Of a stretch of DNA of 41,970 bases, positions 8,670-41,970 are shown one piece after another. A program made the position numbers and the translations under genes. The number at the start of each line of letters is the position of its first letter. Within the stretch, counting starts at the first letter, position 1. The DNA is from a virus. A model generated the notes under the pieces. That model did not search any database. It was not told the DNA's origin and was given only the letters and a program-made list of their open reading frames with translations. The DNA lies in the IMG/VR virus record IMGVR_UViG_3300042556_001650, positions 1 through 41,970 of that record; one strand, written 5' to 3'.

Positions 8670-9105
8670 GCCGGTGACGTTCTTCATCGCCTGCGTGCCG
8701 CCGCGCACCTCGCATCACCACAAGCGCATCGTCCGCATAGGGCAGTTCTCCCGGCTGGCCGACAAGCCCGAACTCGTGCAGGCCAAGGCCACGCTGGACG
8801 CGCTGCTCCTGCCCCACCAGCCGCTCGTGCCGGTGTTCGGGCCGGTGCGGCTCGACCTGGAGTTCACCTGGCCGTGGCGGGCGTCCGAACCGCGCAAGGT
8901 GCGCGCCCTCGGCCGTGTCCCGCACACCAGCAAGCCGGATTGCTCGAACGTCCTGAAGACGCTCGAAGACCGGCTGGTGGCGCTGCGGTTCATCGGGGAT
9001 GACGCCAACGTCGTCGAGGTCACGGTGCGGAAGTTCTGGGGCGACGAGCCGGGCATCCGCATCAGCATCACGCCGCTCACACAGGCGGCGCGGGAGGTCG
9101 CATGA
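8659..9105 (+). CDS. RusA-like Holliday junction resolvase
   Basis: A 148-residue protein with the RusA layout (PF05866): a basic N-terminus, a central strand FGPVRLDLEFTWPW, the core KPDCSNVLKTLEDRL (from residue 92) and GDDANVVEV (113-121). RusA dimers cut four-way junctions with three Asp residues, of which the first two are in PDxDN; here the second is Ser (PDCSN). The DD pair is kept. It is well placed, at the end of the replication block and before packaging, to clear branched DNA. GTG start at 8659 lies in the third junction repeat. Confidence 0.78.
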   Translation: MASEPVTFFIACVPPRTSHHHKRIVRIGQFSRLADKPELVQAKATLDALLLPHQPLVPVFGPVRLDLEFTWPWRASEPRKVRALGRVPHTSKPDCSNVLKTLEDRLVALRFIGDDANVVEVTVRKFWGDEPGIRISITPLTQAAREVA

Positions 9106-10478
9106 GCAACGCCAAGAAGACGCAACAATTCGGGCATATCAAGGATTTGACACACGATCCGCGCAATGCCCGCAAGCACACCCCGCGCAACGTCGGGGAT
9201 ATCGTGTCGGCCCTACAGGAGGTCGGAGCGGCCCGGTCGATTGTCATCGACGAGGACGGCATCATCCTGGCCGGCAACGCGACCATCGACGCGGCAGCCG
9301 AGGCGGGCATCACGAAGCTACAGGTGGTCGACGTGGACGGCGATACGGTCGTGGCCGTGCGGCGAACCGGCCTGACGCCCGCGCAGAAGACGCGGCTCGC
9401 GCTGTTCGACAACCGCGCCGCTGAGCACGCGCAGTGGGACACGGAGGTGCTGCTGGCGCTGGCCGACGAAGGCGCGCTGGTTGGCATGTGGACGGATGAC
9501 GAGATCGCGGCGCTGCAGGCGCTGCAGCAGGAAGCGCCCGACGGCGACGGTGAGGGCGGGGCGGGCAGTCTCGCGGCGAAGTTCGGCGTGCCGCCGTTCT
9601 CCGTCCTGAACGCCCGTGAGGGCTGGTGGCAGGATCGCAAGCGCGGCTGGCTTTCGCTCGGGATAGCAAGCGAACTTGGGCGGGATGCTGCGGTTGGCGG
9701 ATCGAAAATGGTGGCTGGATATGAAGGTGGCGAGCGCAAGACAGGACTCGTGAGTGAAACCGACACATCAATCTTCGATCCGGTCCTCTGCGAACTGGCG
9801 TATCGCTGGTTCTGCCCGCCTGGCGGCGTCGTGCTCGACCCCTTCGCGGGCGGCAGCGTGCGCGGTATCGTCGCCAGCAAGCTTGGGCGCGCCTACGTCG
9901 GCGTCGAACTCCGCGCCGAGCAAATCGCGGCCAATCGCGCACAGGCCGACACGATCTGCGCCGACCCCATGCCGGTCTGGCAAGAGGGCGACAGCCGGTA
10001 CCTCGACACGCTCTGCGCCGGGCTCGCCGCCGATCTCGTCTTCACATGCCCGCCGTACGCCGACCTTGAACGGTACAGCGACGACCCGCGCGACCTTTCG
10101 ACGATGCCCTACGCGGCCTTCGTCGAGGCGTACACGGCCATCATCGCGGGCGCCTGTGCGCTCCTGAAGCCTAACCGCTTCGCCTGTGTTGTTGTCGGCG
10201 AGGTCCGCAGCAAGCATGGCGGTTACTACGGCTTCGTCCCTGACACCATCGCGGCGTTTCGCTCGGCTGGCCTGAGCTATTACAACGAAGCAATCCTCGT
10301 GACGGCCGCGGGGAGCCTGCCGATTCGCGTCTCTGGGCAGTTCACGTCCAGCCGGAAGGTCGGCAAGACGCACCAGAACGTGCTCGTCTTCGTGAAGGGC
10401 GACGCGAAGAAGGCGACACAGGCGGTCGGGCCTGTCGAGTTCGGGGAGATACCCATCGACGAGGAGGCCACTCCATGA
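9102..10478 (+). CDS. ParB-domain / DNA methyltransferase fusion
   Basis: A 458-residue protein. Residues 1-110 are a ParB-like nuclease-fold domain (IKDLTHDPRNARKHTPRN, then AGNATIDAA). The C-terminal half is an amino-methyltransferase: SAM motif I is LDPFAGGSVRG (about 243-253), SDDPRDLS follows the catalytic CPPY at 316-319. The order is typical of phage ParB-MTase proteins that modify cytosine N4 or adenine N6. It is between RusA and terminase, where such proteins often lie, and may mark DNA against host restriction or for packaging. It starts with ATGA overlap and a GGGAGG site, and ends by overlapping the small terminase. Confidence 0.85.
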   Translation: MSNAKKTQQFGHIKDLTHDPRNARKHTPRNVGDIVSALQEVGAARSIVIDEDGIILAGNATIDAAAEAGITKLQVVDVDGDTVVAVRRTGLTPAQKTRLALFDNRAAEHAQWDTEVLLALADEGALVGMWTDDEIAALQALQQEAPDGDGEGGAGSLAAKFGVPPFSVLNAREGWWQDRKRGWLSLGIASELGRDAAVGGSKMVAGYEGGERKTGLVSETDTSIFDPVLCELAYRWFCPPGGVVLDPFAGGSVRGIVASKLGRAYVGVELRAEQIAANRAQADTICADPMPVWQEGDSRYLDTLCAGLAADLVFTCPPYADLERYSDDPRDLSTMPYAAFVEAYTAIIAGACALLKPNRFACVVVGEVRSKHGGYYGFVPDTIAAFRSAGLSYYNEAILVTAAGSLPIRVSGQFTSSRKVGKTHQNVLVFVKGDAKKATQAVGPVEFGEIPIDEEATP

Positions 10479-12633: not shown

Positions 12634-14211
12634 ATGGCGACCACGACGACGCCCTCCACGCTGCGTGATGCCATCGGGCCCACGCATCCGCTGTACGACA
12701 CGTGGCGGCACGTGTGGGTCCAGCTCGCCCATGTGGCCGAAGGCGCGGGCGGCTTCCTCACCGGCGATTACCTCATCCCGCATCCCCGCGAGTGGAAGGA
12801 TCACGAGGCCGCCACGCCGACCCAGCCCACCAAGAAGCTGCTCGAGCGGCGCACGCTGGCCCGCTACGAGAACGTGGCGCGGCTCATCCTGGACGCCAAG
12901 CTGTCCGGGCTCTTCCGTGAGCCGCCGATCCGCCGCTGCATCTCGCCGGCGGGCGCGGTCATCGAGGCGCATCCCTTCCTCGACTGGACGACCAACGTCG
13001 ACGGCGCGGGCACTAGCCTGGCCGACTGGATGCGGGTCGAGTTCATGGCGGCGCTCATCTATGGGCACGACGTGCTCGTGATGGACCGGGCCGGCGATGA
13101 CGGGCAGACGGCGGCCGACCGGGCCGCGCTGGTGCTGCGCGGCTTCACGCCGCTGGACGTGCCCGACTGGCTGCAGAGCTCCACGGGGCACCTCACGGCG
13201 GTCAAGGTCGTCGAGCCGGTCCTGCGCGAGTCGCTCCAGCGGCCGATGCTCGGCACCGATGTGCAGTTCCGCGTCACCGAGATCACCGCCGACGGCGCGA
13301 CCACGTACCAGGCCGGCGTGTCGGAGCGGACCACGGTCGATCACGGGTTCGGCGTGCTGCCGGTGGTGGTGCTGTACGCGCATCGGCGGGCCACGCTGCC
13401 GGTCCTTGGCCAGTCGGCGCTCAGCGACCCGATGTTGTACATCGACCTGTACAACCTCACGAGCGAGGAGCGCGAGCTGCTGCGCAAGCAGACGTTCTCT
13501 ATCCTCAACATCCCGCTCGGCACGTCGGCCGATGGCGGCCCCGCCATGTCGCTCGAGCAGGCGCAGTCGCTGCTCGGGCAGACCACCTCCACCGCGGCGG
13601 TGTTGTTCTCAGGCCAGCCGGCGGGCTACATCACCGCCGACACCAGCACCGTCGAGGTGTACCAGCAGGCGCGGCAGGAGTTGATCCGCACGATCTTCCG
13701 GCTGTGTGCGATCCCCTACGACCAGGACAGCCGCGATGCCGAGTCGGCCGAGTCGCGCCGCCTGAAGCGGACCGATTACGCGACGGTGCTGGCCGGGTAC
13801 GCCGACGAGCTGACGCGCGCCGAGTTGGCGATCGCGCGGCTGTGGTTCCGGGGCACGTACGGCGACCGCTGGGAAGCCGAGTGGGAGCGGGCGGGCCTGC
13901 AGATCCAGTACGCCACCCACTTCGACGCGCCCGAGGCGTCTGAGCTGCTTGGGATGGCCCAGGCCGCGCTCGCGCTACCGATCGGCGAGTCGGCGACGTT
14001 CCGTACCGAGCTCGGGACCAAGATGATCCCGACGTTCCTGCCGGACGCGGCGCCCGACCTGCAGAGCACCATCCGCGCCGAACTCGAAGCCGCACCGACG
14101 CCGGCCGAGGCGCGGCAGGCCAACATGCAGGCGATGGCCGCACGCTTCGCGTCCGTCCCGGCCCGCCGCGACGACCGCGCCGACGACGACGCCGACGACA
14201 GCGAGCGCTAG
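12634..14211 (+). CDS. Portal protein
   Basis: A 525-residue protein after terminase. It carries features of phage portals of the DUF4055/SPP1 gp6 group: an N-terminal region with ARLILDAKLSGLFRE, a central strand-rich clip and wing (GFGVLPVVVLYAHRR), DLYNLTSEERELLRKQTF, and a helical C-terminus (RLKRTDYATVLAGYADELTRAE), ending in a strongly charged Asp/Arg tail. Twelve copies would form the vertex through which DNA enters and to which the connector binds. No clear Shine-Dalgarno precedes ATG 12634, unlike neighbours, which may point to control through the upstream repeats. Confidence 0.8.
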   Translation: MATTTTPSTLRDAIGPTHPLYDTWRHVWVQLAHVAEGAGGFLTGDYLIPHPREWKDHEAATPTQPTKKLLERRTLARYENVARLILDAKLSGLFREPPIRRCISPAGAVIEAHPFLDWTTNVDGAGTSLADWMRVEFMAALIYGHDVLVMDRAGDDGQTAADRAALVLRGFTPLDVPDWLQSSTGHLTAVKVVEPVLRESLQRPMLGTDVQFRVTEITADGATTYQAGVSERTTVDHGFGVLPVVVLYAHRRATLPVLGQSALSDPMLYIDLYNLTSEERELLRKQTFSILNIPLGTSADGGPAMSLEQAQSLLGQTTSTAAVLFSGQPAGYITADTSTVEVYQQARQELIRTIFRLCAIPYDQDSRDAESAESRRLKRTDYATVLAGYADELTRAELAIARLWFRGTYGDRWEAEWERAGLQIQYATHFDAPEASELLGMAQAALALPIGESATFRTELGTKMIPTFLPDAAPDLQSTIRAELEAAPTPAEARQANMQAMAARFASVPARRDDRADDDADDSER

Positions 14212-16578: not shown

Positions 16579-17718
16579 GTGCCTCTGCAGAACACGTACA
16601 CCCTCAACCTGGCGGCCAACCGCCTCGCGGCCGAAGACGTCAGCGACATCGCGATCCCCCTCATCCCGAAGGAGACGCCGCTGCTGGCGTTCTTGGGCGG
16701 GCCGAACCGCTTCGCGGCGCGCAATGTCCTCCACGAGTACGTGGAGGACTTCATGCTGCCGAACTTCATCACCACGTCGACCGCGATCAACTCGGCGACG
16801 GCGGCGACGGCGTTCCAGGTCAACGGGCTGGGTGAGGCGCTGACCATCGGCACGATCCTGCAGAACGAGACCTCGGCCGAGTTCGTCCAGGTGTCCTCGA
16901 TCATCGGGCCGAACTCGATCGCCGTGACCCGCAACTACGACGGCTCCGGCATCGGCTCGCTCGCGGCCGGCGGCCAGCTCCGCGTGCTCGCGCACGCCGG
17001 GCTCGAAGGCGCGGATCACCGCAGCGACCACACCGCGCGCATGGGCGTGCGCCGGGCCAACACGGTCGGCTACTACGCCATCCCGTTCGGCACGTCGGGC
17101 AGCCAGCTCCAGCTCACGACGTACGGCAGCAACAGCTACGACGACGCCCTGGCCAAGGGCATCGTGCAGTCGCTGTACATGCTGGAGAACGAGATCGTGG
17201 CCGGCGTGCTGAACGCGGCCAACTCGCTCGGCACGTCGACGACGTTCCGCACGATGCGCGGTCTGCGCGGCCACCTCACCTCGGTCAACTCGACGGTGAC
17301 GGCGTCCTCGCTGGCGGCCAACCCGCACCTGTACCTCGGCGACGTGTTCGACGCCATGTACGCCAACGGCGCGAGCCCGACCGAGAACTGGGCCATCGTG
17401 GCGGGCCGCACGCTGTACCGCTCGATCTCGAACCTGAACGACACCAAGGTTGAGGACAGCCAGCAGACCGAGGACTTCAAGCGGGTCGTCAGGCGCTACA
17501 CCGGGCCCTTCGGCTCGGCCGAGGTCATCCTCTCGCGCGCGCTCGGCGCCAACGAGGGCCTGATCGTCAGCCAGGAGCGTGTCCGTCCGGGCACCTTCCG
17601 CCCGTGGACCCGCATCCCGATCGCGCAGACCGGCGACAACCAGCGCGACCTGGTGGTCGGCGAGTTCACGCTCGAAGTGCACCACGAGTCGGCGCTCGGC
17701 CGCATCCGCGGCATCTAA
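16579..17718 (+). CDS. Major capsid protein, SU10-like
   Basis: A 379-residue protein of the SU10/DUF5309 major capsid group, an HK97-fold variant. It has an N-terminal segment with IAIPLIPKETPLLAFLGGPNRFAARN, central ENETFAEF-like variable strands, ALAKGIVQSLYMLENEIVAGV on the spine helix, and a C-terminal GPFGSAEVILSRALGANEG with LVVGEFTLEVHHE. It follows the scaffold and has a strong GAAGGAG ribosome site before GTG 16579. Hundreds of copies form the head. Surface Ser/Thr-rich loops (TSTAINSATAATA) could accept sugar from the enzyme at 17972, but that is inference. Confidence 0.85.
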   Translation: MPLQNTYTLNLAANRLAAEDVSDIAIPLIPKETPLLAFLGGPNRFAARNVLHEYVEDFMLPNFITTSTAINSATAATAFQVNGLGEALTIGTILQNETSAEFVQVSSIIGPNSIAVTRNYDGSGIGSLAAGGQLRVLAHAGLEGADHRSDHTARMGVRRANTVGYYAIPFGTSGSQLQLTTYGSNSYDDALAKGIVQSLYMLENEIVAGVLNAANSLGTSTTFRTMRGLRGHLTSVNSTVTASSLAANPHLYLGDVFDAMYANGASPTENWAIVAGRTLYRSISNLNDTKVEDSQQTEDFKRVVRRYTGPFGSAEVILSRALGANEGLIVSQERVRPGTFRPWTRIPIAQTGDNQRDLVVGEFTLEVHHESALGRIRGI

Positions 17719-17746
17719 GCCGCACCGGCCACCACGGCCACACCCT

Positions 17747-17783
17747 GTCCCAGCTCGCCCCGGTGGCGGGCTGGGACCGTCTC
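17747..17783 (+). terminator. Strong hairpin after the capsid gene
   Basis: GTCCCAGC at 17747-17754 pairs exactly with GCTGGGAC at 17770-17777, and four further inner pairs (CGCC with GGCG) extend the stem around a short loop; CGTCTCT follows. There is no long U tract, so it may attenuate transcription or protect the capsid message rather than end it. That would lower output of the genes behind it. Confidence 0.55.
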
Positions 17784-17801
17784 TGGGGAGGGACGACGTT
17801 C

Positions 17802-17975
17802 ATGCATCCACTGCTCGCCGAAATCATCGCGTGCAAGGACGCGCCACGCACCGACGTGCTGCGGCGCTGGCAGCAGCAGCTCCGCGACGAGATCGCGCCG
17901 CTGGTGGCCGCGGGCGAAGCCGCACGGGCCGCCGCGGCCGAGGCCAAGGGGCGCGGCAAGGCGGTGACGGCATGA
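17802..17975 (+). CDS. Hypothetical protein, 57 residues
   Basis: A small, helical, Ala/Arg-rich protein (MHPLLAEIIACKDAPRTDV, then a helix AAGEAARAAAAEAK). It has GGGAGGG 10 bases upstream, starts after the hairpin and overlaps the glycosyltransferase gene by four bases. Its place between capsid and glycosyltransferase and strict coupling to the latter suggest a partner or a translation leader for that gene. Not recognised as a family. Confidence 0.5.
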   Translation: MHPLLAEIIACKDAPRTDVLRRWQQQLRDEIAPLVAAGEAARAAAAEAKGRGKAVTA

Positions 17976-20900
17976 CGCCGTACACGTGGGCCTTCTACGT
18001 CCACTCGGTGCCCATCACGCAGGACATCCGTGACGGGCGCGGCGGCCTTGGTGGGTCGGAGTCGGCCTGCTTCGGGCTGGCCCGCGCGCTGGCGCAGGCC
18101 GGGCAGGTCGTGCACATCCTCGCGCAGCGGCTCGCGCCAGACGCGACGGGGCGCGATGCGTGGGGCGTGACCTGGCACGATGCCGGGGAGCACGACGCGC
18201 ACGTGTACGCCTGGTGCGATGTCGTCGAGCCCGACGTGTTCGTGGCCCTGCGCATGGGGCACATCTTCCAGCACCCGATCCGCGCGCGGTACCGGATGCT
18301 CTGGAATCAGGATCTGCTGGTCAACGCCCAGGGCGCGCAGGCCCTCATGGCGACCTCGTGGCAGGTCGACCGGTACGTGTACGTCTCGGACTACCACCGG
18401 CAGCAGTGGGAAGGGCAGTGTCCCGACCTGAAGGGGCTGGCGTACGTCACGCGCAACGGGTTCGACCCGGCGCACGTGCCCGACGTGCCGAAGGTCCCCG
18501 GGCGGATCTGCTACATCACGCGGCCGGAGCGCGGCCTCGGGCCGCTCCTGCAGATGTGGCCGGCACTCAAGGCCGCGGTGCCGCATGCCGAGCTGCACCT
18601 GACCCGCTACAGCAGCATGTACGACGGCGAGGGCAGTGCCGTCGCGCAGATGTGCCAGCACTACGACCGGCTGACGGCGAAGGTGCAGGCCGAGGTCGGC
18701 GGCATCGTCACGTACGACGGCGGGCTGGGCAAGGCCGACCTCTACCGGCTCATCGCCTCCTCGGAGGTGATGTGGTACCCGGGTGTGGCCGACTTCGCGG
18801 AGACGTCCTGCGTGGCCGCCGTGGAAGCGCAGGCCTGCGGGACGGCGTTTGTCGGCTCGGCCAAGGGCGCCCTGCCGGAAACCGTGCCCAACGGTGTCCT
18901 GCTCGCCGGTGACGCCTACTCGCCGGAGTATCAAGCCACCAGCGTGGCGACCGTCGCCGCGATCCTGAACGGCACGCGCCCCGGCTTCGTGGGGGCAGGC
19001 CGCATGCACGTCCAGTCCTACAGCTACGCCGCCATCGCGCAGGACTGGATCGCGGACGTCATGGGCTTCTTCGCGGCCCGGTACGAGGCGCACAAGCCCG
19101 GCGTCCTGCGCCAGCTCCTCCAGTACGACGACCACACCGCGGCGCTGCTCTGCGCCCGCGAGCTGCACGACGACGCGGCGGTGGCGTTCTGTCACCGCGT
19201 CATCGACGGGAAGGACCAGACCGCCGAGGACTACGGCGACCGGGCCAATCACGACGTCCTGCGCGAGATCGAGATGGACGGGCGCCTGCGCGAAGCGATG
19301 GCGCGCTTTGAGGGCTGCACGCGCGTCCTCGATGTCGCCTGCGGCAACGGCGCCTTCGCGCTCGGCCTGGCGCTGCAGTTTCCCGACGTCCGTGTGGTCG
19401 GGGTCGACTACGCGGCCGACAACATCGCCCGGGGCACCGAGGCGGCGATCCGGCTCGGGCTGGCCGACCGGGTGACGTTCCAGCAGGGCGTCATCTACGA
19501 CTTCGAGCACCACACCGTCGACGAGCGGTTCGCGGCGCTGGTGGCCCAGGACGCCGAGGGCTTCGACGGCGTGTTCGTGGGCGAGTTCCTCGAGCACATC
19601 GCGAACGTCCAGGCCGTCCTCGCCGCCGTGCATGCCGGGGTCCGTCCGGGCGGCCGGGTGATTGCCACGATGCCGTCGGGGCCGTTCACGGAGATGATGC
19701 CGCCCGGCGTGCCCATCAAGCGCGGGCACGTGCACCACTTCGCGTACGACGACCTCACGGCGATCTTCGGGACGCAGACCGACGCGACCATCGACGTGCT
19801 GCAGATCGCGCAGGCCACGCCCCGCGGCAACCCCGTGGCCCACTGGCTGGTGACGTACACGCCGTCGGGCCAGCCGCTCGGCACGCGGCCCTACGACAAG
19901 CGCCTCCGCACGACGCGCCCGATGCCGACGTTGTCGGTCGGGCTCATCGTCGGCCCGGGCGCGCGGCTCGACCTGCCCAAGTGCCTGGAGACCGTCGTCA
20001 AGATTGCCGACGACCTGGTCATCGGACGCATGGGCCCGGACGCCAACGTCAGCGCGGCGGCCGAGTATGGCGCGCGGGTGATCGAGCTGCCGCCGGTGGC
20101 GGATCTCGCGGGCGGCTTCGCCGAGGCGCGCAACCGCGTCCTGGCGGCGTGCACCGGCGAGTGGTTCCTGTGGATCGACGCCGACGAGCAGCTCCTCGGC
20201 GCGGCCGGGCTGCGGAAGTACCTCGAGGCGCATACGTTCCACGGGTACGTCTTGAAGCAGAACCACCTCCAGATCGACGCGCCCACGTTCGCCGACGAGC
20301 CGGTCCGACTGTTCCGCCGGCGGCCCGACATCGCGTTCCACGGCGCGGTCCACGAGCAGCCCCAGATGGGGGACAGCAACACGGACATCTGGCCGACGCT
20401 GGCCCCGCTCGACGTCCAGATCGCGCACTACGGCTACCTGACCGAGCCGGTGCGCCGGCGCAAGGCGCTGCACCGGAACCTCGCGCTCCTGGTGCGCGAC
20501 CGGCAGATGTTCCCGGACCGGCGCCTCGGCCGCGTGCTGTGGCTGCGGGAGTTCGCGACGTGGCTCCGCGAGATCGGCGCCCGGCAGTCGACCTACCAGG
20601 ACGCCGTGCAGATCATGGTCGACGCGGTCGGCGTCGAGGCCGTGTCGGCGCTGGTGTTCGAGGGCGCGCCGATTCCAGCGTCGGGGCTGGCGCTGGCGCG
20701 GTTCGCGGCCGACCACTACGAGCGGCACTTCCCGGTGCCGACCGACAAGCTCGCGCAGCTCGCGCGGCCCTTCTACGAGACCGCGCTCCGCGTCCTGCCG
20801 GAAGCGTGGGAGGTCGACTTCGCGTTCGCGGCCACGCAGGGCGGGATGCGGGGCCGGCGGGCCAAGGCCACGCCGTTCTGGACGCGCTCGCTCGACGACG

Positions 20901-21004
20901 TGCACCGGATGCTCGACGCCTCGGTGCAGCCGCTGGCGCAGGCGGTGGCGCCGACGCCGATTCACACCGACCCGTTCCCCCGTGAGGAGGCGCCTGCGGC
21001 ATGA
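17972..21004 (+). CDS. Three-domain glycosyltransferase / methyltransferase / glycosyltransferase
   Basis: A 1010-residue protein. Domain 1 (about 1-380) is a GT-B fold of the GT4 type: GGLGGSES (24-31), which binds the acceptor side, and VEAQACGT (about 284-291), with the Glu that holds the nucleotide sugar. Domain 2 (about 430-640) is a Rossmann methyltransferase: motif I VLDVACGNG (about 452-460), VVGVDYA and FLEHI. Domain 3 (about 650-870) is a GT2 (GT-A) enzyme with DADE (736-739), the metal and sugar-nucleotide site, and HYGY...K..RN, a layout of SunS-like and LPS glucosyltransferases. A helical C-terminal region follows. It probably builds and methylates a short glycan. It lies between the capsid and connector genes, overlapping both neighbours, so its target may be a virion protein; host surface polysaccharide is the alternative. 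Confidence 0.85.
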   Translation: MTPYTWAFYVHSVPITQDIRDGRGGLGGSESACFGLARALAQAGQVVHILAQRLAPDATGRDAWGVTWHDAGEHDAHVYAWCDVVEPDVFVALRMGHIFQHPIRARYRMLWNQDLLVNAQGAQALMATSWQVDRYVYVSDYHRQQWEGQCPDLKGLAYVTRNGFDPAHVPDVPKVPGRICYITRPERGLGPLLQMWPALKAAVPHAELHLTRYSSMYDGEGSAVAQMCQHYDRLTAKVQAEVGGIVTYDGGLGKADLYRLIASSEVMWYPGVADFAETSCVAAVEAQACGTAFVGSAKGALPETVPNGVLLAGDAYSPEYQATSVATVAAILNGTRPGFVGAGRMHVQSYSYAAIAQDWIADVMGFFAARYEAHKPGVLRQLLQYDDHTAALLCARELHDDAAVAFCHRVIDGKDQTAEDYGDRANHDVLREIEMDGRLREAMARFEGCTRVLDVACGNGAFALGLALQFPDVRVVGVDYAADNIARGTEAAIRLGLADRVTFQQGVIYDFEHHTVDERFAALVAQDAEGFDGVFVGEFLEHIANVQAVLAAVHAGVRPGGRVIATMPSGPFTEMMPPGVPIKRGHVHHFAYDDLTAIFGTQTDATIDVLQIAQATPRGNPVAHWLVTYTPSGQPLGTRPYDKRLRTTRPMPTLSVGLIVGPGARLDLPKCLETVVKIADDLVIGRMGPDANVSAAAEYGARVIELPPVADLAGGFAEARNRVLAACTGEWFLWIDADEQLLGAAGLRKYLEAHTFHGYVLKQNHLQIDAPTFADEPVRLFRRRPDIAFHGAVHEQPQMGDSNTDIWPTLAPLDVQIAHYGYLTEPVRRRKALHRNLALLVRDRQMFPDRRLGRVLWLREFATWLREIGARQSTYQDAVQIMVDAVGVEAVSALVFEGAPIPASGLALARFAADHYERHFPVPTDKLAQLARPFYETALRVLPEAWEVDFAFAATQGGMRGRRAKATPFWTRSLDDVHRMLDASVQPLAQAVAPTPIHTDPFPREEAPAA

Positions 21005-21867
21005 GCTGGCACCCGAACGACCTGCTGACCGACGCCGACCTGCTCGCGTACGAGCCGACCATCCTGACGCAGTTCGGCCGCGTCGAGTGGATCGACAAGC
21101 GCGCCAAGGCGCTGGAGGACTGGCTCTGGCCGTCCCTGCAGACGCGCGGGCTCGACCCGGAACGCCTGCGGACGCGCGTCCAGCCGGCGCAGGTCTGGTC
21201 GTTCCAGTCCAGCACCTTCACCGACTGCACCGAGGCGGCCATCTCGCAGACCACCGACGACGTGGCGATCGGCTCGTGGCTCACCAACACCACCGACGCC
21301 CTGTTCATCGGCAGCGCCAGCATGTTCCGGGGCCTGTCGCTGCGGGTGGCGGATCTGCCGTCCTCGGCGGCCTCCGCGCTGACCATCGACGTGTGGCAGG
21401 ACGCGTGGACGCCGATCGCGGTGACTGACGGGACGCAGGCCACGGCGGAGCAGTCCTTCAGCCGCGGCGGGGCCATCACGTGGCGCCCGCCCGCCGGGTG
21501 GGTAGTGCGGAGCGTGAACAACGCCGGCCCGCGCTACTGGGTGCGCCTGCGGGTGTCGGCGGCGGTCACCAGCGGTGCGCGGGCGGGCCAGCTCTCGGTG
21601 ATCCGGCGGTCGGTGTTCGGGGCGCCGGTCACGTACAAGACGCTGGAGTGGATCTTCCGCGCCGCGCCGACCTCGCAGGACGGCCCGTGGCGCGACAAGG
21701 CGGAGTTCTACGCCGATGCCGCGGAGGTCGCGCTACAGCGGGCCCTGCAGGCCGGTGGTGGCGAGTTCGACACGGTCACCGAGGACGACGTGATCGACGT
21801 CGACGAGGCGGCCCAGACCACCGAGGAAGCGGGCGGCGCGACCGCCTGGACGCTGGAGCGGGGCTGA
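21001..21867 (+). CDS. Putative head-tail connector / structural protein
   Basis: A 288-residue protein of the structural operon. The N-terminal part (LTDADLLAYEPTILTQFG, DKRAKALEDWLWPSLQTRG) is helical like head-tail adaptors. The middle is beta-rich with several WxxR strands (YWVRLRVSAAV) like a small decoration or tail module. The final part is helical and acidic. Such a two-part layout and the place before the tail terminator fit a connector. No specific family is recognised. ATG 21001 overlaps the glycosyltransferase stop. Confidence 0.5.
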   Translation: MSWHPNDLLTDADLLAYEPTILTQFGRVEWIDKRAKALEDWLWPSLQTRGLDPERLRTRVQPAQVWSFQSSTFTDCTEAAISQTTDDVAIGSWLTNTTDALFIGSASMFRGLSLRVADLPSSAASALTIDVWQDAWTPIAVTDGTQATAEQSFSRGGAITWRPPAGWVVRSVNNAGPRYWVRLRVSAAVTSGARAGQLSVIRRSVFGAPVTYKTLEWIFRAAPTSQDGPWRDKAEFYADAAEVALQRALQAGGGEFDTVTEDDVIDVDEAAQTTEEAGGATAWTLERG

Positions 21868-22304: not shown

Positions 22305-23372
22305 ATGTCTGTCACTGGTCGCAACAGCCGCGCGGGATTTGCCGTGTACGGCGCCAACTCGTGGGGCGTGGCCGCCTCGGTCACCCGCGCCCTGCACGTC
22401 ACCTCGGACGCCGGGCTCACGCTGCAGCCGCAGTTCTCCGAGAACGAAACCTTCAACCAGGGCTTCTTCCGCAACGCCAGCGTGGGCGACATCACCGCGC
22501 CCGACCTGACGCTGCAGACCGACGCCCGGTACGAGGACTTCAACTACGTCCTCGAAGCCTGCGCGATGGGCTCGCCGGTGGCCCCCACGGTGGTCTCGTC
22601 CACCGGCGGCAACGCCTACCAGCACATCATCGACCTGGCGCCCTCGGTCTCGGGCCGTGGCATCACGTTCGCGGTCGAGTACGGCGGCGCGGGCTTCAAC
22701 CCGTTCATTCAGGAGCTCACCAGCGCCCGGGTGTACGGCTTCAGCGAGGCCGTCGGCGGCGCGGGCGTGATCACGCAGTCGTTCCGGCTGCTCGGCTCCA
22801 AGCCGACCATCACGTCCTCGATCAACTTCAACAGCACCCTCGCGTCGATGTCGGTCCCCGGCTTCGGCACGAAGGTGTTCCGCAAGAACGGCGTCTTCCG
22901 GCTGAACGCGCAGGCGGGCGGCTCGCTGGTGGCGGCCGACGCGGTGCAGATCGAGGATCTGTCCTTCGAGTTCACGCGCGTGAACGATGCGCCGTACGTG
23001 TACGGCCAGGACTTCATCGCCGAGCCGGCCGACAACGGGTTCCCGACCGTCCGTGTGGCGGTGACGTTCCCGCGCATGACGACGGTGTCGGCCAACAGCA
23101 TGTACACGCTGCTCCAGGCTGGCGGCGCCTGGAAGGGCGACGTGCTGTACACGGGCGCGCTGATCAACAGCGCGACCAGCTACACGAAGCTGATCCAGTG
23201 GCCGTACCTCGAGCCGCAGGAGATCACGCTCAACCTGGCCGGGGCGCAGCAGGTCAAGCCGACCGTGACCTTCATGGCGAAGGAAGTGGCGGCGGCGCCG
23301 ACCGGCATGGCGGGCGTCACGCGCCCGTTCCGCATCACGCGCACGATGGCGAACTCACTGGCCGCCTTCTAA
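22305..23372 (+). CDS. Major tail (tube) protein
   Basis: A 355-residue, beta-rich protein with an AGGAG ribosome site. It resembles phage tail tube proteins of the Phage_tube_2 type: SDAGLTLQPQFSENETFNQGFF, DLTLQTDARYEDFNYVLEACAMG, GVITQSFRLLGSK, and repeated strands near the end. It stands directly before the frameshifted chaperones and tape measure, which is the position of the tube gene in siphoviruses. Its rings form the tail shaft. Confidence 0.8.
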   Translation: MSVTGRNSRAGFAVYGANSWGVAASVTRALHVTSDAGLTLQPQFSENETFNQGFFRNASVGDITAPDLTLQTDARYEDFNYVLEACAMGSPVAPTVVSSTGGNAYQHIIDLAPSVSGRGITFAVEYGGAGFNPFIQELTSARVYGFSEAVGGAGVITQSFRLLGSKPTITSSINFNSTLASMSVPGFGTKVFRKNGVFRLNAQAGGSLVAADAVQIEDLSFEFTRVNDAPYVYGQDFIAEPADNGFPTVRVAVTFPRMTTVSANSMYTLLQAGGAWKGDVLYTGALINSATSYTKLIQWPYLEPQEITLNLAGAQQVKPTVTFMAKEVAAAPTGMAGVTRPFRITRTMANSLAAF

Positions 23373-24145: not shown

Positions 24146-27100
24146 ATGGCGCGCGAACTGCTGCAGTACCAGGTCACCGTCGACACCTCGCAGGGCACGG
24201 CGTCCCTGCGGTCGTTGGATCAGGTCACCAAGGACGTCGACAGCACCCTCAAGAAGCTCGGGATGACCGAGGAGGAGATCGCGAAGGACCGGGCGGCCTA
24301 CGCGAAGCTGTCCGAGGAGGCGCTGCGGCGCATCGAGCGCGGGACCAGCACGCTCGAGAAGGAAACCAAGAAGCTCGGCGACACCACCAAGGCCGAAGCG
24401 AGCACGATGTCCTCGGCGCTGACCTCGCTGGGGCAGCGCATCGTGGCGGTGTTCGCGGTCGAGCGCCTGATCTCGTTCGGCACGCAGGTCGTCAACACGG
24501 CCGGGCACATCAACGACCTGTCGGCCAAGACGGGCCTCTCCACTACCGCGATCCAGAAATTCGGCTACGCCGCCAACCTGTCGGGCAGCAGCATCGACGC
24601 GGTCGCCAATGCCATCAGCGCCATGTCTCGCAACCTGGTGTCGGGCGGCGGCGCCGTCGAGGCGTTGAACAAGCTCGGGCTGTCACAACGTGAGCTGTTG
24701 CGCCTGGAGCCCGAGCAGGCGTTCCTGCGCATCACCGAAGCCATTCGGAGCATGAAGAACCCGATGGAGCAGGCCGAGGTCACGATGCGGATCTTCGGCA
24801 AGGGCGGCAAGGAGATCCTGCCCGCCATCAAGGACGGGTTCGCCGAGGCCGGAGACGAAGCGCAGCGCCTCGGGGCGGTGATGTCGGAGCAAACCGTGCG
24901 TGACCTCGACGACCTCGGCGATGCGTGGGGCAAGGCGTACGCCACCATGCAGGGCCGGGCGGCGGGGCTGCTGGCGATCGTCGTGCGGATCGGCGGGTCG
25001 ATGTCGGAGCTCGCTGGGCAACTGCCCGCGTGGACGTCCCGGTGGACGAGCGCGCTCACCAGCATGACGAACATCCCCGGCTGGGCGGTGAAGTTCCTCG
25101 AGGAGGCCGAGACCCAGAAGAACTGGGTCGACTGGCAGCGTGGGCGAACGCCGATGCCGACCGATGGCGGCGACGTCACGCGCGGCTTCGGGAGCCCCAG
25201 CGGCGGCTATCAGGCGGCCGACCTGGACACGCTGCTCGCGGTGACCAAGGAGGTCGACACGGCCACGGGCCGCCTCGGCGAGACCAAGGCGCGGATGACG
25301 CAGGCCGTCCGTGTGCAGGAGGCGGCGGTGGTCAAGCTGACCGAGGCGCAGCAGTTCGCGCTGGGCGGCATGCAGGACTACCGCGACGAGATCACGCGCA
25401 CGGCGTTCGCGCTGCTCCAGATGGCCGAGGCGCAACGCCTGGCGGCCGAGGCCCAGCGCAATTTCGACCAGTTCGGCATCTACGGCATCAACCCCGGGTA
25501 CGGCAACGTGCCGGGCACCAGCCTGATCCCGAACGGCGCCAACCCGATCCCGACCACGATGGGCCTGCCCGGGGCGGTGCGTGGGACGACGCCGATGGGC
25601 GCGGTACCGAACGGGCCGGGCTTCTGGGACAGCCGAACGGGGCAGGCCGCCGCCACGGGCATCGGCATGGCGGGCTCGGCGGCCATGGGCGCCCTGACGG
25701 GAGGCGATCCGTACGCCTCGCTCGTCGGCAGCGGCGCGGCGGCCATCAGCGGCGTGATGCTGGCCGGCACCATCGGGTCGACGGTCGCCCTCGGCGCGGC
25801 GACCATGGGCATCGGCGCGGCGGCGGTCGGCGTGTACATGCTGGTCAAGCACTTCGCCAGTGTGTCGAAGGAAGTGAAACAGGCCCGCGTGGAAGTCGAC
25901 GCCTTCCAGGAAGGTCTGTGGAAGACGATGACCGCGCAACAGGTCAACGAGGCGGGCGGCGAGAAGTGGGCGGCCACGCTGATCGTGGTGCGCGATGCGT
26001 ACGAGCGCATGGGCCTCACCGCGGCGCAAGCTGAGGGCGACGTGGCCAAGCTGTTCGACACGCGCAACCCGGACCAGGCCCGCGAGGCGATGGCCCGGAT
26101 CAATGGCGTGGTGTCGGACTACCGCGCCATCCTCGCCGGCGTCAACGAGCAGATGGGCGACCTGCTCACGCAGGCCGACGCGCTCGGCATCCGGCTCCCG
26201 CAGGCGCTCCTCGATTCCCTGAATGCCGCGGTGCAGCTCGGCGACATGACCGAGGAGAACGCCCGCCTGATCGCCAGCCTGACGCAGGCGTCCGAGGTGG
26301 ACTGGGAGAAGTTCGAGGAGGCGGCGCAGCGGTACGGCATCGCGGTCGATGCGCTCGGCCAGCAGTTCCAGCAGCACCAGATTTCCAAGACGGCGCAGCA
26401 GATGGTCGACGACATGGATCTCCTGCTGCGGGGCGGGGCGACCATGGGCACGATCCTCTACGGCATGAAGGAGGAGATCAGCACGGTCGTCCAGAACGCG
26501 ATGAAGTTCGGGACCGAGCTGCCCGAGAACATGCGGCCCTGGATCGAGGAGTTGCAGCGGGCGGGTCTGCTCGTCGATGCGCAAGGACAGGCCCTCACCG
26601 ACATCACGAACCTTCGGTTCGGCGAGTCGATGCAGACGACGTTCCAGCGGGTCGCCGACAGCATTCAGGAGCTCGTCGACCTGCTGAAGGGGCCGCTCAC
26701 CAACGCGCTCGACACGGTCGGCACCAAGGTCGTCAAGCCGCGCGTCGAGGTGGAAGTCTCGGGCGGCGGCGACGGGTCGATCTGGGACGGCACGCGCAAC
26801 GGCTACGCCCACGGCGGCGTGGTGTACGCGGCGGGTGGGTGGGTGCCGCGGGGGACCGACACGGTCCCGGCGATGCTCACGCCTGGCGAAGGCGTGCTCT
26901 CGCGGCGCGGGATGGCCATGCTGGGGGCGCTCAACGCGGGCATGACGGGCGGCGGCGGATCGCCGGTCTCGGTGGCGGTCAACCTGCAGGGCGCGCTCCT
27001 CAACGACCGGCGCCAGGCCGAGGTCATCGCCGAGCAGGTCGGCGCGGCCATCGTGCGGCAGCTCTCGCGTGAACGGAAGTTCGCGGCGGTGATCCAGTAA
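24146..27100 (+). CDS. Tape measure protein
   Basis: A 984-residue protein, the second longest gene. It has a long helical N-terminus, a hydrophobic Gly/Ala-rich region at about 500-570 (VLAGTIGSTVALGAATMGIGA) that may cross the host membrane during DNA entry, helical repeats after it, and the C-terminal module YAHGGVVYAAGG...PRGTDTVPAMLTPGEGVLS typical of siphovirus tape measures. From about 0.15 nm per residue, its length suggests a tail of roughly 150 nm. It starts after AGGGAG. Confidence 0.92.
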   Translation: MARELLQYQVTVDTSQGTASLRSLDQVTKDVDSTLKKLGMTEEEIAKDRAAYAKLSEEALRRIERGTSTLEKETKKLGDTTKAEASTMSSALTSLGQRIVAVFAVERLISFGTQVVNTAGHINDLSAKTGLSTTAIQKFGYAANLSGSSIDAVANAISAMSRNLVSGGGAVEALNKLGLSQRELLRLEPEQAFLRITEAIRSMKNPMEQAEVTMRIFGKGGKEILPAIKDGFAEAGDEAQRLGAVMSEQTVRDLDDLGDAWGKAYATMQGRAAGLLAIVVRIGGSMSELAGQLPAWTSRWTSALTSMTNIPGWAVKFLEEAETQKNWVDWQRGRTPMPTDGGDVTRGFGSPSGGYQAADLDTLLAVTKEVDTATGRLGETKARMTQAVRVQEAAVVKLTEAQQFALGGMQDYRDEITRTAFALLQMAEAQRLAAEAQRNFDQFGIYGINPGYGNVPGTSLIPNGANPIPTTMGLPGAVRGTTPMGAVPNGPGFWDSRTGQAAATGIGMAGSAAMGALTGGDPYASLVGSGAAAISGVMLAGTIGSTVALGAATMGIGAAAVGVYMLVKHFASVSKEVKQARVEVDAFQEGLWKTMTAQQVNEAGGEKWAATLIVVRDAYERMGLTAAQAEGDVAKLFDTRNPDQAREAMARINGVVSDYRAILAGVNEQMGDLLTQADALGIRLPQALLDSLNAAVQLGDMTEENARLIASLTQASEVDWEKFEEAAQRYGIAVDALGQQFQQHQISKTAQQMVDDMDLLLRGGATMGTILYGMKEEISTVVQNAMKFGTELPENMRPWIEELQRAGLLVDAQGQALTDITNLRFGESMQTTFQRVADSIQELVDLLKGPLTNALDTVGTKVVKPRVEVEVSGGGDGSIWDGTRNGYAHGGVVYAAGGWVPRGTDTVPAMLTPGEGVLSRRGMAMLGALNAGMTGGGGSPVSVAVNLQGALLNDRRQAEVIAEQVGAAIVRQLSRERKFAAVIQ

Positions 27101-28384: not shown

Positions 28385-29677
28385 ATGCCCGCCAGCACGA
28401 TCAGTCGCGCCACGTGGACCGATGGCGTCAGCGGGACGTTGATCAACAACGCCCGGCTCCAAGCCGACATCTACGACCGGATCGACACGCTGATCGCCAG
28501 TGCGATCACGTTCGGCAGCACGATCACGGCCGAGGGCTTCGGCAATCACCTGTTCAGTGCGGCGGGGACGGGCGCCAATGCGCTGATCTCGCGCAACACG
28601 TCGGCCGGCACCGGCAATTACGCGGGCCTCGTGGTCGGCAACGATACCGCGTCAAACCTCGGCACGTTCCGCGGCCACAGCAGCACGTTCACCACGGGCA
28701 CGCTGTACCGCGCGTCGGGCTGCACGCTGGAGGCCACGGGCACGGGCGGGCTGGTGATCGCCGCCTCCAACGCCTCGGGGGCGCTGTGGTTCCTGTCGGC
28801 CAACACGCTCCGAACGACCGTCAACAGTGCAGGGCATTGGATCTTCGGCAGCAACGCGACCGAGTCCAACATTGTGAACTGGCAGCTCCGCACGACGGGC
28901 GGCAATCCCAGCGGGCAGCTCTGCATCAACGGGGACGGCACCGGCTACCGGTTCGCGATCGCGCGCAACAACGCGGGCACGGTCACCGACCAGATCTTCT
29001 TCCAGGACAACGGCGACATCCTGCCGGCGACGACGGGCGTGTCGAGTCTGGGCTCGGCCTCGCTGGCGTGGAATCGCCTGTTCATGGCGAACGGGTCGGC
29101 GGCCAATCCGTCCCTGACGGCGGGCAGCGACACCAACACGGGCATCTACTTCGACGGCGCGGACGCGCTGCTCATCAGCACCGGCGGCACGCAGCGGATC
29201 TCGGTCGGCACGGGCACGAGCATCACCGGCTCGTTGACGGTGTCGAGCGGCCTCTCGGTGACCGGCGCCGCCAATGCGGCCGGCGTGCTGCCGAACAGCG
29301 ACGACCTGTACGACCTCGGCGGCGTGTCGGATCGCTGGGATGACGTGTACGCGACCAACGCGACCATCCAGACCTCCGACCGGAACCTGAAGAAGGACAT
29401 TGCCGCGCTGCCGCTGGGCCTGGCGTTCCTGCGGGGCCTGCGGCCTGTCCAGTACCGCTGGAACCGTGAGGGTCGCAAGGGCACCGGGCGCCTGCATGCC
29501 GGATTCATCGCGCAAGAGGTCCTGACCGCCGCGCCGGACATCTCGGGCTTCGGGCTGGTCACGGGCGAGGGCACCGAGGCCAACCGGTACGGCCTGCGCT
29601 ACACCGAACTCATCGCGCCGCTGGTGGCGGCGGTGCAGGAATTGGCGGCCCGTCTCGAGGCCGTGGAGACGCGCTGA
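28385..29677 (+). CDS. Tail fibre with C-terminal S74 intramolecular chaperone
   Basis: A 430-residue protein. Residues 1-330 have the Gly/Ser/Thr/Asn-rich, short-strand repeat look of a trimeric fibre (GLVVGNDTASNLGTF, GSDTNTGIYFDGAD). The last 100 residues are a peptidase S74 domain: TSDRNLKKDI carries the Ser and Lys of the self-cleaving site, followed by GLAFLRGLRPVQYRW, HAGFIAQEV and LRYTELIAPLVAAVQEL. The chaperone folds the trimer and is then released. It should hold the receptor-binding role. It starts one base after the hub stop. Confidence 0.9.
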   Translation: MPASTISRATWTDGVSGTLINNARLQADIYDRIDTLIASAITFGSTITAEGFGNHLFSAAGTGANALISRNTSAGTGNYAGLVVGNDTASNLGTFRGHSSTFTTGTLYRASGCTLEATGTGGLVIAASNASGALWFLSANTLRTTVNSAGHWIFGSNATESNIVNWQLRTTGGNPSGQLCINGDGTGYRFAIARNNAGTVTDQIFFQDNGDILPATTGVSSLGSASLAWNRLFMANGSAANPSLTAGSDTNTGIYFDGADALLISTGGTQRISVGTGTSITGSLTVSSGLSVTGAANAAGVLPNSDDLYDLGGVSDRWDDVYATNATIQTSDRNLKKDIAALPLGLAFLRGLRPVQYRWNREGRKGTGRLHAGFIAQEVLTAAPDISGFGLVTGEGTEANRYGLRYTELIAPLVAAVQELAARLEAVETR

Positions 29678-39318: not shown

Positions 39319-40395
39319 TCAGGGTTGGCCCCCGCGCTTCCGGGCGAACGTGTCGGCGGCGGCGAGCACGCGCGCATCGACGGACGTGAGGGTGTACCGC
39401 GCCGTGGTCGCGAGCGAGGTGTGGCCCGCCCACGCTTGCACGGCCCGCTCGTCGCGGCTGGTGACGGCGAGGTAGCTGAGGAGACTGTGCCGCAGGTCGT
39501 ACGGGCGCCAGTCGGTCGCCCCGTACCCGGCGGCCTCGCAGGCGGCGCGGAACCGCGTGTGCAACGACGACGCGCTGAACCGGCCCCACGCATCGACCCG
39601 TGCCAGAGCGCGCAAGGCGGGGCGGCTGTGGCGCGTCAAGGGCAACGCGCGCGGGGCCGTGCCGGCGCCCTTGCGGCGCCCCGACACCACCACCAGCCCG
39701 ACGTCCCACCGCACATCCTCGGGGCGCAGCCGCATGATCTCGGCGGGCGCCATGGCGGTGCTCGCCATGACCGCGAGCCTCGCGCGTGTCTTCGAGCGGG
39801 GCGTGAACTGCCGCAGGATCGCCGCGATGGCCAGCGGCGGGATGTACCGGGGCTGCGCCTGTGGCGCCGGCGGCATCGGGACCTCGCGCGCGGGGTTGCG
39901 GGCGCCGCGCCCGTCGAGCACGGTGTACCAGTGGCGCAGCACCTTCAGCAGATGCCGCAACGTCTCCGGGGCCAACGGCGGGCGGTCCGGCAGCGTGGGC
40001 CGCAGGGGAGGCCGGCGGGTGGTGGCCCACACCTGGAGCTGAGTGCGGATCTGCGCCGGGGTGAGCTGGTCACGCCGCACCGGGCCGAGCGCGGCCACCC
40101 AGCGATCGACGTACAAGGCGCGCGTGCGATACGACGGCATGGCGCGCACGGCCTCGAGGTAGGCCGCGGCATCGGCGGCCAGGGTGCCGGGGGGCGCGGT
40201 GCTGACGCGGCGCCGGCTGCGCCGCAGCGCGGCCTGCAACGCCTCGCGGTGCTGCTGGAGCTGCGCGAGCGGCGTGTCTGCCGGATAGCGCCGTTCGGCC
40301 CGCTGGTCGCCCACGATGGCGATGACGGACACGCCGCCGGTGTCGCGATAGATGCCGGGCGCGATCCGCGTGCGGGCGCCGCGGTGGCGGGGCAT
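39319..40395 (-). CDS. int: Tyrosine-recombinase integrase
   Basis: A 358-residue protein with an SAM-like N-terminal domain (about 70-160) and a catalytic C-terminal domain (about 185-345). Visible catalytic residues are Lys242, the YDLRHS box (299-304, Arg302), GH (324-325) and Tyr334. Two things are off: the first Arg (expected in TGxR) is Ala at 216 in STAMAPAE, and His-II is Tyr in YDLRH, which is common. The enzyme would join attP to a host tRNA-Lys. It is cotranscribed from upstream minus genes and ends before the terminator at 39196. Confidence 0.85.
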   Translation of the reverse strand: MPRHRGARTRIAPGIYRDTGGVSVIAIVGDQRAERRYPADTPLAQLQQHREALQAALRRSRRRVSTAPPGTLAADAAAYLEAVRAMPSYRTRALYVDRWVAALGPVRRDQLTPAQIRTQLQVWATTRRPPLRPTLPDRPPLAPETLRHLLKVLRHWYTVLDGRGARNPAREVPMPPAPQAQPRYIPPLAIAAILRQFTPRSKTRARLAVMASTAMAPAEIMRLRPEDVRWDVGLVVVSGRRKGAGTAPRALPLTRHSRPALRALARVDAWGRFSASSLHTRFRAACEAAGYGATDWRPYDLRHSLLSYLAVTSRDERAVQAWAGHTSLATTARYTLTSVDARVLAAADTFARKRGGQP

Positions 40396-40397
40396 GG

Positions 40398-40550
40398 CTA
40401 CGCCTTCGGGCGGGGCACGGGCGTCGGGCGCGGGCGCACGACGCGGGTGATGGTTAAGCCGGGGTTCTGCGTCACCGTCAGGGCCGGGGTGGGCCGTGGC
40501 TGCTCGGTGCGCGTGACGATGCGCAGCGGCGACTTTGGCGACTGGTTCAC
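40398..40550 (-). CDS. Small basic Pro-rich protein, 50 residues
   Basis: A short minus-strand frame whose GTG at 40550 overlaps the TGA of the exported-protein gene and whose TAG is two bases before the integrase ATG. It has many Arg and Pro (RTEQPRPTPALTVTQ, RVVRPRPTPVPRPKA). It might be a DNA-binding or directionality peptide; the tight coupling to the integrase supports translation. Not recognised. Confidence 0.5.
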   Translation of the reverse strand: MNQSPKSPLRIVTRTEQPRPTPALTVTQNPGLTITRVVRPRPTPVPRPKA

Positions 40551-41104
40551 CGCTTGCCCGCCAGCTTCAGGTCCGCGGTGATCGTGCTCCCGGACTCATA
40601 GACCGCGACGATCTCCCACGCGCCCGCAGGAATCGCCGAGCGGGGGAACCGCGCCGCGAGAATCTGCGCGGGCCACTGCGCGCCGACGTTGTTGGCGAAC
40701 GACTGCGGGATGGTCTCGGTGCCCATCGGTTGCAGCGCGCGGGCGGCATCTGTGCTGCCCTTGGGCCGCAACACGACGCGCACCGGGCTCAGGACCCCGG
40801 CTGGCCAGTACGGGCCGGGTTGCCGCACTCTCGGATAGGCCCACACCACCACCACGTCGTCCAGCAGCGCGGGCGCGAGGTCCGCGGCGGTCAGGGGCCG
40901 GAGCGCCTTGTCGGCGGTCCGCTTCTCCTCGACCACCCGGGCGTACGCCGTGGTCACCCGGAACGGGCCCATTTTGTACGCGCCGTCGTGGCGGGTGTCG
41001 GCGAGCGCCGCGGCGACCTGATCGGGCGGCAAGGGGTGGCCGTCTTGCGCCTGCAGCGGGGCGGCCACGAGGACGGCGCACAGCGCCAGCGCCAGGCGGG
41101 GCAT
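40547..41104 (-). CDS. Exported protein, lysogenic-conversion candidate
   Basis: A 185-residue protein with a signal peptide (RLALALCAVLVAAPLQA, likely cut before or near QDGHP at about residue 20). The mature part is about 165 residues, beta-rich, with no Cys and no membrane anchor, so it should be periplasmic or secreted. It belongs to the minus lysogeny operon with integrase, which suggests expression from the prophage. Host surface change or superinfection exclusion is possible; no family is recognised. A GGAGA ribosome site precedes the ATG. Confidence 0.6.
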   Translation of the reverse strand: MPRLALALCAVLVAAPLQAQDGHPLPPDQVAAALADTRHDGAYKMGPFRVTTAYARVVEEKRTADKALRPLTAADLAPALLDDVVVVWAYPRVRQPGPYWPAGVLSPVRVVLRPKGSTDAARALQPMGTETIPQSFANNVGAQWPAQILAARFPRSAIPAGAWEIVAVYESGSTITADLKLAGKR

Positions 41105-41638: not shown

Positions 41639-41645
41639 CGCGGCA

Positions 41646-41652
41646 TCCTTCC
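41646..41652 (-). promoter_or_regulatory. Ribosome site that sets the repressor start
   Basis: GGAAGGA on the minus strand ends seven bases before the GTG at 41638. The upstream ATG at 41662 has no such site, so the shorter 144-residue product is preferred. Confidence 0.6.
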
Positions 41653-41700
41653 ACACGCCCATAGCGCGATCAACGGCTAAGTGCCGCCCCGTGTACAACT

Positions 41701-41766
41701 TACGGAATCCTACGGACTGGGTGCGGAATTGTGTTGACATTTGTCCGTAGGATTCCGTAGGATTCC
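41701..41766. promoter_or_regulatory. Operator region, second copy
   Basis: The same three half-sites as at 62-127 (41701-41717, 41743-41756 and the direct repeat up to 41766), with promoter elements TTGACA at 41734-41739 and TAGGAT at 41758-41763. Unlike the left copy, the base after the last half-site is G, which matches the earlier unit better. Confidence 0.7.
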
Positions 41767-41770
41767 GTCC

Positions 41771-41970
41771 ATGGCACTGCAGCACTTGCGCGAGTCGCGT
41801 GGATGGACTCAGCGGCGGCTCTCCGCTGAATCGGGCATCCCCGCCGACGTGATTTCCACCATCGAGACCGGCCGGGTCAAGAACCCCACCTGGCGCACGG
41901 TCCGGGCCTTGGCCGCCGCGCTCGAGGTCGAGCCCGACGCCCTGTTCACCGACGCCAGTGTGGCCTCTGA
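41771..41970 (+). CDS. Cro-like regulator, second copy, cut by the window end
   Basis: The first 66 codons of the Cro-like gene at 132-347, with three third-base changes and a Pro-to-Ser change in the last codon. The window ends within it. It is the same gene seen twice through circle closure, not a second locus. Confidence 0.8.
   Translation, partial: MALQHLRESRGWTQRRLSAESGIPADVISTIETGRVKNPTWRTVRALAAALEVEPDALFTDASVAS

Follow-up and report, generated by a model that had tools for sequence, protein, structure and literature searches.

A trifunctional GT4-methyltransferase-GT2 gene in the head-tail operon of an uncultured phage lineage: a candidate for virion glycosylation

Background

Glycosylation of virions has been documented, in the papers cited here, for a few mycobacteriophages only. 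In Corndog, a phage of cluster O, an O-methyltransferase, two glycosyltransferases and a GlcNAc-transferase are encoded between the genes of the portal and the capsid protease; these enzymes were detected in infected cells, not in virions, and modification of the capsid was proposed (PMC4351075). According to later papers that cite Freeman 2023, such mycobacteriophages have a modified capsid and tail tube (PMC11600133, PMC12363180, PMC12619734). Wildflower, also of cluster O, has the gene order portal, O-methyltransferase, three glycosyltransferases, protease, capsid. Among protein glycosyltransferases, GmaR of Listeria transfers GlcNAc to flagellin (PMC9638930).

The window analyzed here, i.e. 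the whole stretch of 41,970 nucleotides of the IMG/VR virus record IMGVR_UViG_3300042556_001650, carries close to its capsid gene a single gene whose product of 1010 residues combines a GT4 glycosyltransferase, a SAM methyltransferase and a GT2 glycosyltransferase.

Genome context and structure of the gene

The ends of the window form a direct repeat (positions 1–331 and 41640–41970; 331 nt with five mismatches), and because of these end repeats the record is probably a near-complete genome that is either circularly permuted or redundant at its termini. The plus-strand genes of the portal protein (12634–14211) and the tape measure protein (24146–27100), together with the terminase genes, surround the major capsid protein gene (16579–17718, plus strand; SU10_MCP, Pfam E-value 5e-41) and the trifunctional gene (17972–21004, plus strand). 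At 9102–10478, just before the terminase genes, a DNA methylase (N6_N4_Mtase) is encoded in fusion with a ParB-like domain, and 28385–29677 codes for a tail fibre with a Peptidase_S74 intramolecular chaperone domain. A tyrosine integrase gene (39319–40395) is located on the opposite strand, 18 kb from the trifunctional gene, and is adjoined by a minus-strand gene (40547–41104) for a protein of 185 aa with a signal peptide-like start and no Pfam match, which is possibly secreted and expressed during lysogeny.

The frame at 17972–21004 comprises 1010 codons without internal stops, and its third-position GC content of 0.95 equals that of the sure genes of the window; it is a real gene, and the coordinates, strand and chain length given in the initial annotation proved correct on re-reading the frame. 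An antisense frame of 1099 aa (17666–20965) was rejected as a shadow, because its high-GC position is codon position 1. An upstream start at 17579, which would yield 1141 aa, was not preferred, since the alignments of relatives begin at residues 1–5 counted from the start at 17972.

Four-nucleotide ATGA overlaps connect the gene with the ORF at 17802–17975 on one side and with the gene at 21001–21867 on the other, suggesting translational coupling. The initial annotation had described an overlap with structural genes on both sides; the overlaps themselves stand, but the plus-strand neighbours, coding for 57 and 288 aa, match no family and are not proven structural. By position only, the conserved 288-aa protein is a presumed head-tail connector and a conserved protein encoded at 22305–23372 (plus strand) a presumed major tail protein; family and structure searches with these two gave no match. 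Firmly structural are the capsid gene, which immediately precedes the 57-aa ORF, and the tape measure gene further downstream. The 57-aa protein shows the pattern MDPxxEEICRAR...FRRWQRxLRDEIxPxLDE in relatives, and its family sits between the capsid gene and the enzyme gene in most relatives examined; it may act with the enzyme as a partner or serve as its acceptor.

Domain architecture of the enzyme

In agreement with the initial annotation, Pfam domains of a GT4, a methyltransferase and a GT2 follow one another in this order in the chain; their motifs are intact, and structure prediction recovered the corresponding GT-B, methyltransferase and GT-A folds. Since a first AlphaFold model of the whole chain, built from 9 sequences, had low confidence over the GT2 unit, a second model was built with 30 sequences.

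The GT4 unit (17972–19087, residues 1–372) shows the GT-B fold and the E277-x7-E285 motif of the GT4 family, and matches Pfam Glyco_trans_1_4 at residues 185–311 with 27.5 bits (cut-off 27). Foldseek searches with its AlphaFold model returned MshA, GlgM, PimB, glycogen synthase and 7qsg, besides a methylmannose polysaccharide mannosyltransferase. The central unit (19283–19867, about residues 438–632) belongs to the class I SAM methyltransferases, having a Rossmann-like fold, the glycine-rich SAM motif D454-x-ACGxG, and D479; it matches Methyltransf_31 at residues 450–569 (E-value 5e-15), and its fold matches are carminomycin-4-O-methyltransferase, AtmM and MitM. Most of the enzymes matched in fold by these two units have small molecules or lipids as their substrates. 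Between the window protein and a 96% identical relative (L003), differences are concentrated in residues 291–345 of the GT4 unit, the remainder being nearly identical; this stretch looks like the result of local recombination or a diversified patch.

The GT2 unit (19919–20506, about residues 650–845) has a GT-A fold with D736-x-D738-E739 and H794-E795-Q796, and matches Pfam Glycos_transf_2 at residues 715–780 with 24.8 bits (cut-off 23.3). With residues 652–844 as single-sequence query, the top PDB match was GmaR (E-value 2.5e-11), and a 30-sequence profile of the unit retrieved GmaR (4e-30), SunS (4e-20) and ThuS (7msk; 1e-17), followed by chondroitin synthase (4e-12). The GT-A domain precedes a C-terminal region (20507–21001, residues 846–1010) which in the model consists mostly of helical hairpins and a short end domain, and in which no Pfam TPR matches were found. 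The model of the GT2 unit together with this region has a mean pLDDT of 90, and its best fold matches are SunS and ThuS (E-value about 1e-14, alignments of 296–314 columns; next match 5e-7). The GT-A fold, the D-x-D(E) motif and the closest similarity by both profile and fold assign the unit to the GmaR/SunS/ThuS kind; its nearest relatives thus appear to be cytoplasmic protein or peptide glycosyltransferases. In the PDB, SunS and ThuS carry the name S-glycosyltransferase. The acceptor of these two enzymes is a cysteine of a small peptide.

A hydropathy scan of the window protein and its relatives revealed no convincing membrane segment. The highest 19-residue hydropathy was 1.77 in the window protein and at most 1.69 in the other relatives, and the peak of 1.77 falls in a variable C-terminal stretch which is missing from most relatives.

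Conservation of the gene in the lineage

All three domains are kept in a single frame in 30 non-redundant relatives (<97% identity to each other), which share 44–51% identity with the window protein, and the comparison indicates that the three-domain chain is not a chance fusion. E277/E285, D454-x-ACGxG, D479, D736-x-D738-E739 and H794-E795-Q796 are invariant in the 30 sequences, so that the DADE and E-x7-E residues, for which the initial annotation had recommended a search, were indeed found; because the motifs are invariant down to 44% identity, the three units look catalytically alive. Between close relatives, dN and dS amounted to 0.005 and 0.059 for residues 1–290 of the GT4 unit and to 0.005 and 0.051 for the methyltransferase, and both units are under purifying selection.

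In a search of viral contigs with the capsid protein, in which the enzyme was not used as query, 62 loci were obtained, 15 of which end too soon; each of the 47 loci with room has the enzyme gene after its capsid gene. With the enzyme as query, the capsid gene was found upstream in 44/44 loci, and the 288-aa gene again followed the enzyme gene in 34/34, all counts including near-duplicate contigs (distinct enzymes of <97% identity, n = 30). A wider capsid search revealed four loci at 35–36% capsid identity which retain the enzyme gene and several at 26–31% without it, and among capsid relatives of >31% identity no locus lacking the enzyme gene was found. Sporosarcina phage Lietuvens and L169, which are such gene-less capsid relatives, encode a tail sheath, and in another one (L167) Pfam finds no separate glycosyltransferases after the capsid gene.

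Pairwise distances of the enzyme units track those of the capsid protein (r of 0.83, 0.73 and 0.78 for GT4, methyltransferase and GT2, respectively; 0 of 2000 permutations), and they follow them as well as the distances of the portal and the presumed connector do. Since it occurs at 47 of 47 capsid loci, is kept at 35% capsid identity and co-diverges with the capsid, the enzyme gene is, as judged from these comparisons, a core gene of the head-tail operon of the lineage and not a moron; unlike a mobile moron, it has been inherited vertically with the head genes.

Some relatives carry additional genes at this position. An extra gene of the Methyltransf_24 family, which also includes the methyltransferases of Wildflower and Che8, is located exactly between the capsid and trifunctional genes of L089 (11428–12042) and L027 (1098–1700), as if the glycan were modified further there. 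An ORF between the capsid gene and the enzyme gene of L013 (7456–7986) and L043 (9453–9983) unusually combines Thr/Ala-rich repeats with a weak HTH_3 match located after them. The lineage is uncultured, no isolated phage with the enzyme gene being present in the phage collection searched. Only two metagenome-assembled genomes, which bear the labels Xanthobacteraceae and Nitrospira, gave bacterial hits with the enzyme; because the binning of these genomes may be wrong, no host is claimed.

Proposed function

The initial annotation had suggested that the enzyme places a short methylated sugar on the capsid or tail of the phage itself, and this reading has gained in weight. Virion glycosylation is best supported because of the kinship of the GT2 unit with protein glycosyltransferases, the lack of a convincing membrane segment, the fixed place in the head-tail operon of every relative and the parallel in cluster O; the three intact units are likewise in its favour. 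We assign a probability of roughly 0.64 to the proposal that the enzyme decorates particle proteins of the phage with such a sugar, with GT2 acting first, GT4 second and the methyltransferase providing the cap. Several observations speak against it. The capsid protein of the window stops at the end of its core, without a C-terminal extension, whereas mycobacteriophage glycans are reported at the C-termini of capsid and tail tube (PMC12619734). No homology to the mycobacteriophage enzymes was detected, the fold matches of the GT4 and methyltransferase units point mostly to small-molecule or lipid substrates, and the immediate neighbours of the gene are structural by position only.

According to this proposal, the enzyme would be a soluble three-unit protein made late in infection together with the head and tail proteins. 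Its GT2 unit, being of the GmaR/SunS kind, would take the first sugar from a nucleotide sugar of the host and attach it to a side chain of a freshly synthesized virion protein, the presumably retaining N-terminal GT4 unit would add a second sugar, and the central methyltransferase would cap the sugar with a methyl group. The fusion would hold the three steps together and time them with the synthesis of the structural proteins. A more far-reaching version, in which one cytoplasmic chain would both assemble and methylate a short protein-linked glycan on the virion as a constant, possibly essential step of assembly, in a whole lineage outside the actinobacteria and independently of the mycobacteriophage systems, is put forward tentatively, the odds being somewhat against it.

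Alteration of a surface polysaccharide of the host, leading to receptor masking, superinfection exclusion or serotype conversion, is an unlikely role. The window phage does possess an integrase, but its gene lies far from the enzyme gene on the other strand, and eight records, which may be fragments, keep the enzyme gene without an integrase match. PHROGs classifies the best glycosyltransferase matches as moron genes, yet the enzyme is fixed in the structural operon of every relative and co-diverges with the capsid. The GT4 fold matches include envelope enzymes, e.g. PimB and the methylmannose polysaccharide mannosyltransferase; however, the protein itself is without a convincing membrane segment, and no flippase-like partner was detected in the neighbourhood examined. 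Membrane partners and a location beside the attachment/integrase module, which characterize gtr-type serotype conversion, were thus not found. A host polymer is a possible target, albeit one that agrees poorly with the unchanging structural setting of the gene and with an apparently soluble protein.

It is rather improbable that the protein serves mainly in assembly or as a minor structural component of the head-tail junction, with enzyme activity in second place. Its obligate place between the capsid gene and the presumed connector would suit such a function, but all three active sites are invariant in the 30 sequences, down to 44% identity, and the analogous Corndog enzymes were not detected in virions (PMC4351075). 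Glycosylation of modified bases of the phage DNA is very improbable: phage DNA glycosyltransferases do exist (literature cited in PMC12619734), but no base-hypermodification gene occurs among the window proteins scanned (a subset of the ORFs), the kin of the GT2 unit are protein glycosyltransferases, and the gene sits in the structural, not in the replication module.

Under the preferred reading of virion glycosylation, an unrelated fused enzyme that every relative found keeps next to its capsid gene points to more than one origin of glycosylated virions, and to virion glycosylation as a feature that may be constant within a phage lineage. Animal antibodies, whose role has been discussed for mycobacteriophages, would not explain such glycosylated virions. 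Combining two glycosyltransferases and a methyltransferase in one chain, the enzyme is in addition a candidate for a compact protein-tagging tool in bacteria.

Comparison with known systems

GmaR shares with the enzyme an alignment of about 190 residues of the GT-A domain, including DADE and HEQ, and is likewise a soluble protein glycosyltransferase, whereas its C-terminal part is an antirepressor (PMC9638930) and GT4 and methyltransferase units are absent. SunS and ThuS, the top fold matches of the GT2 and C-terminal model, are single glycosyltransferases without a methyltransferase or GT4.

In Podovirus ctKR88 (MW202524), a glycosyltransferase cluster begins two genes after the capsid gene, and its first enzyme is a fusion of GT2, TPR and GT4, the GT4 part being 29% identical. 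However, the order is GT2-GT4, the chain contains no methyltransferase, and there are several additional separate enzymes; no capsid match between ctKR88 and the lineage of the trifunctional enzyme was found. Che8 gp108–gp110 comprise glycosyltransferases as well; gp108 is a fusion of GT2 and Methyltransf_24, and gp110 is reported to modify the capsid (PMC12363180). In contrast to the trifunctional gene, the Che8 genes occupy the extreme right end of their genome, include a two-domain fusion at most, and show no BLAST similarity.

The notion of the initial annotation that phage glycosyltransferases usually occur apart and near lysogeny genes holds in part, but the sets of cluster O (Corndog gp35–gp38; Wildflower gp33–gp36) lie in the head operon. 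Like the locus described here, they combine a methyltransferase with glycosyltransferases near the capsid gene, with no sugar-nucleotide genes alongside (PMC4351075). They differ in consisting of four separate genes between portal and protease, in their actinobacterial hosts, and in their enzyme families, which are TylF/Methyltransf_24 and GT25-like. The linkage of a methyltransferase and glycosyltransferases to head genes is thus shared with the mycobacteriophage type, whereas no homology of the trifunctional enzyme to the enzymes of Wildflower and Che8 (for the latter, by BLAST) was found. Since no similarity was detected and the families differ, the enzyme does not appear to be a member of the cluster O set by descent; on this evidence, it rather resembles a fused version of that set.
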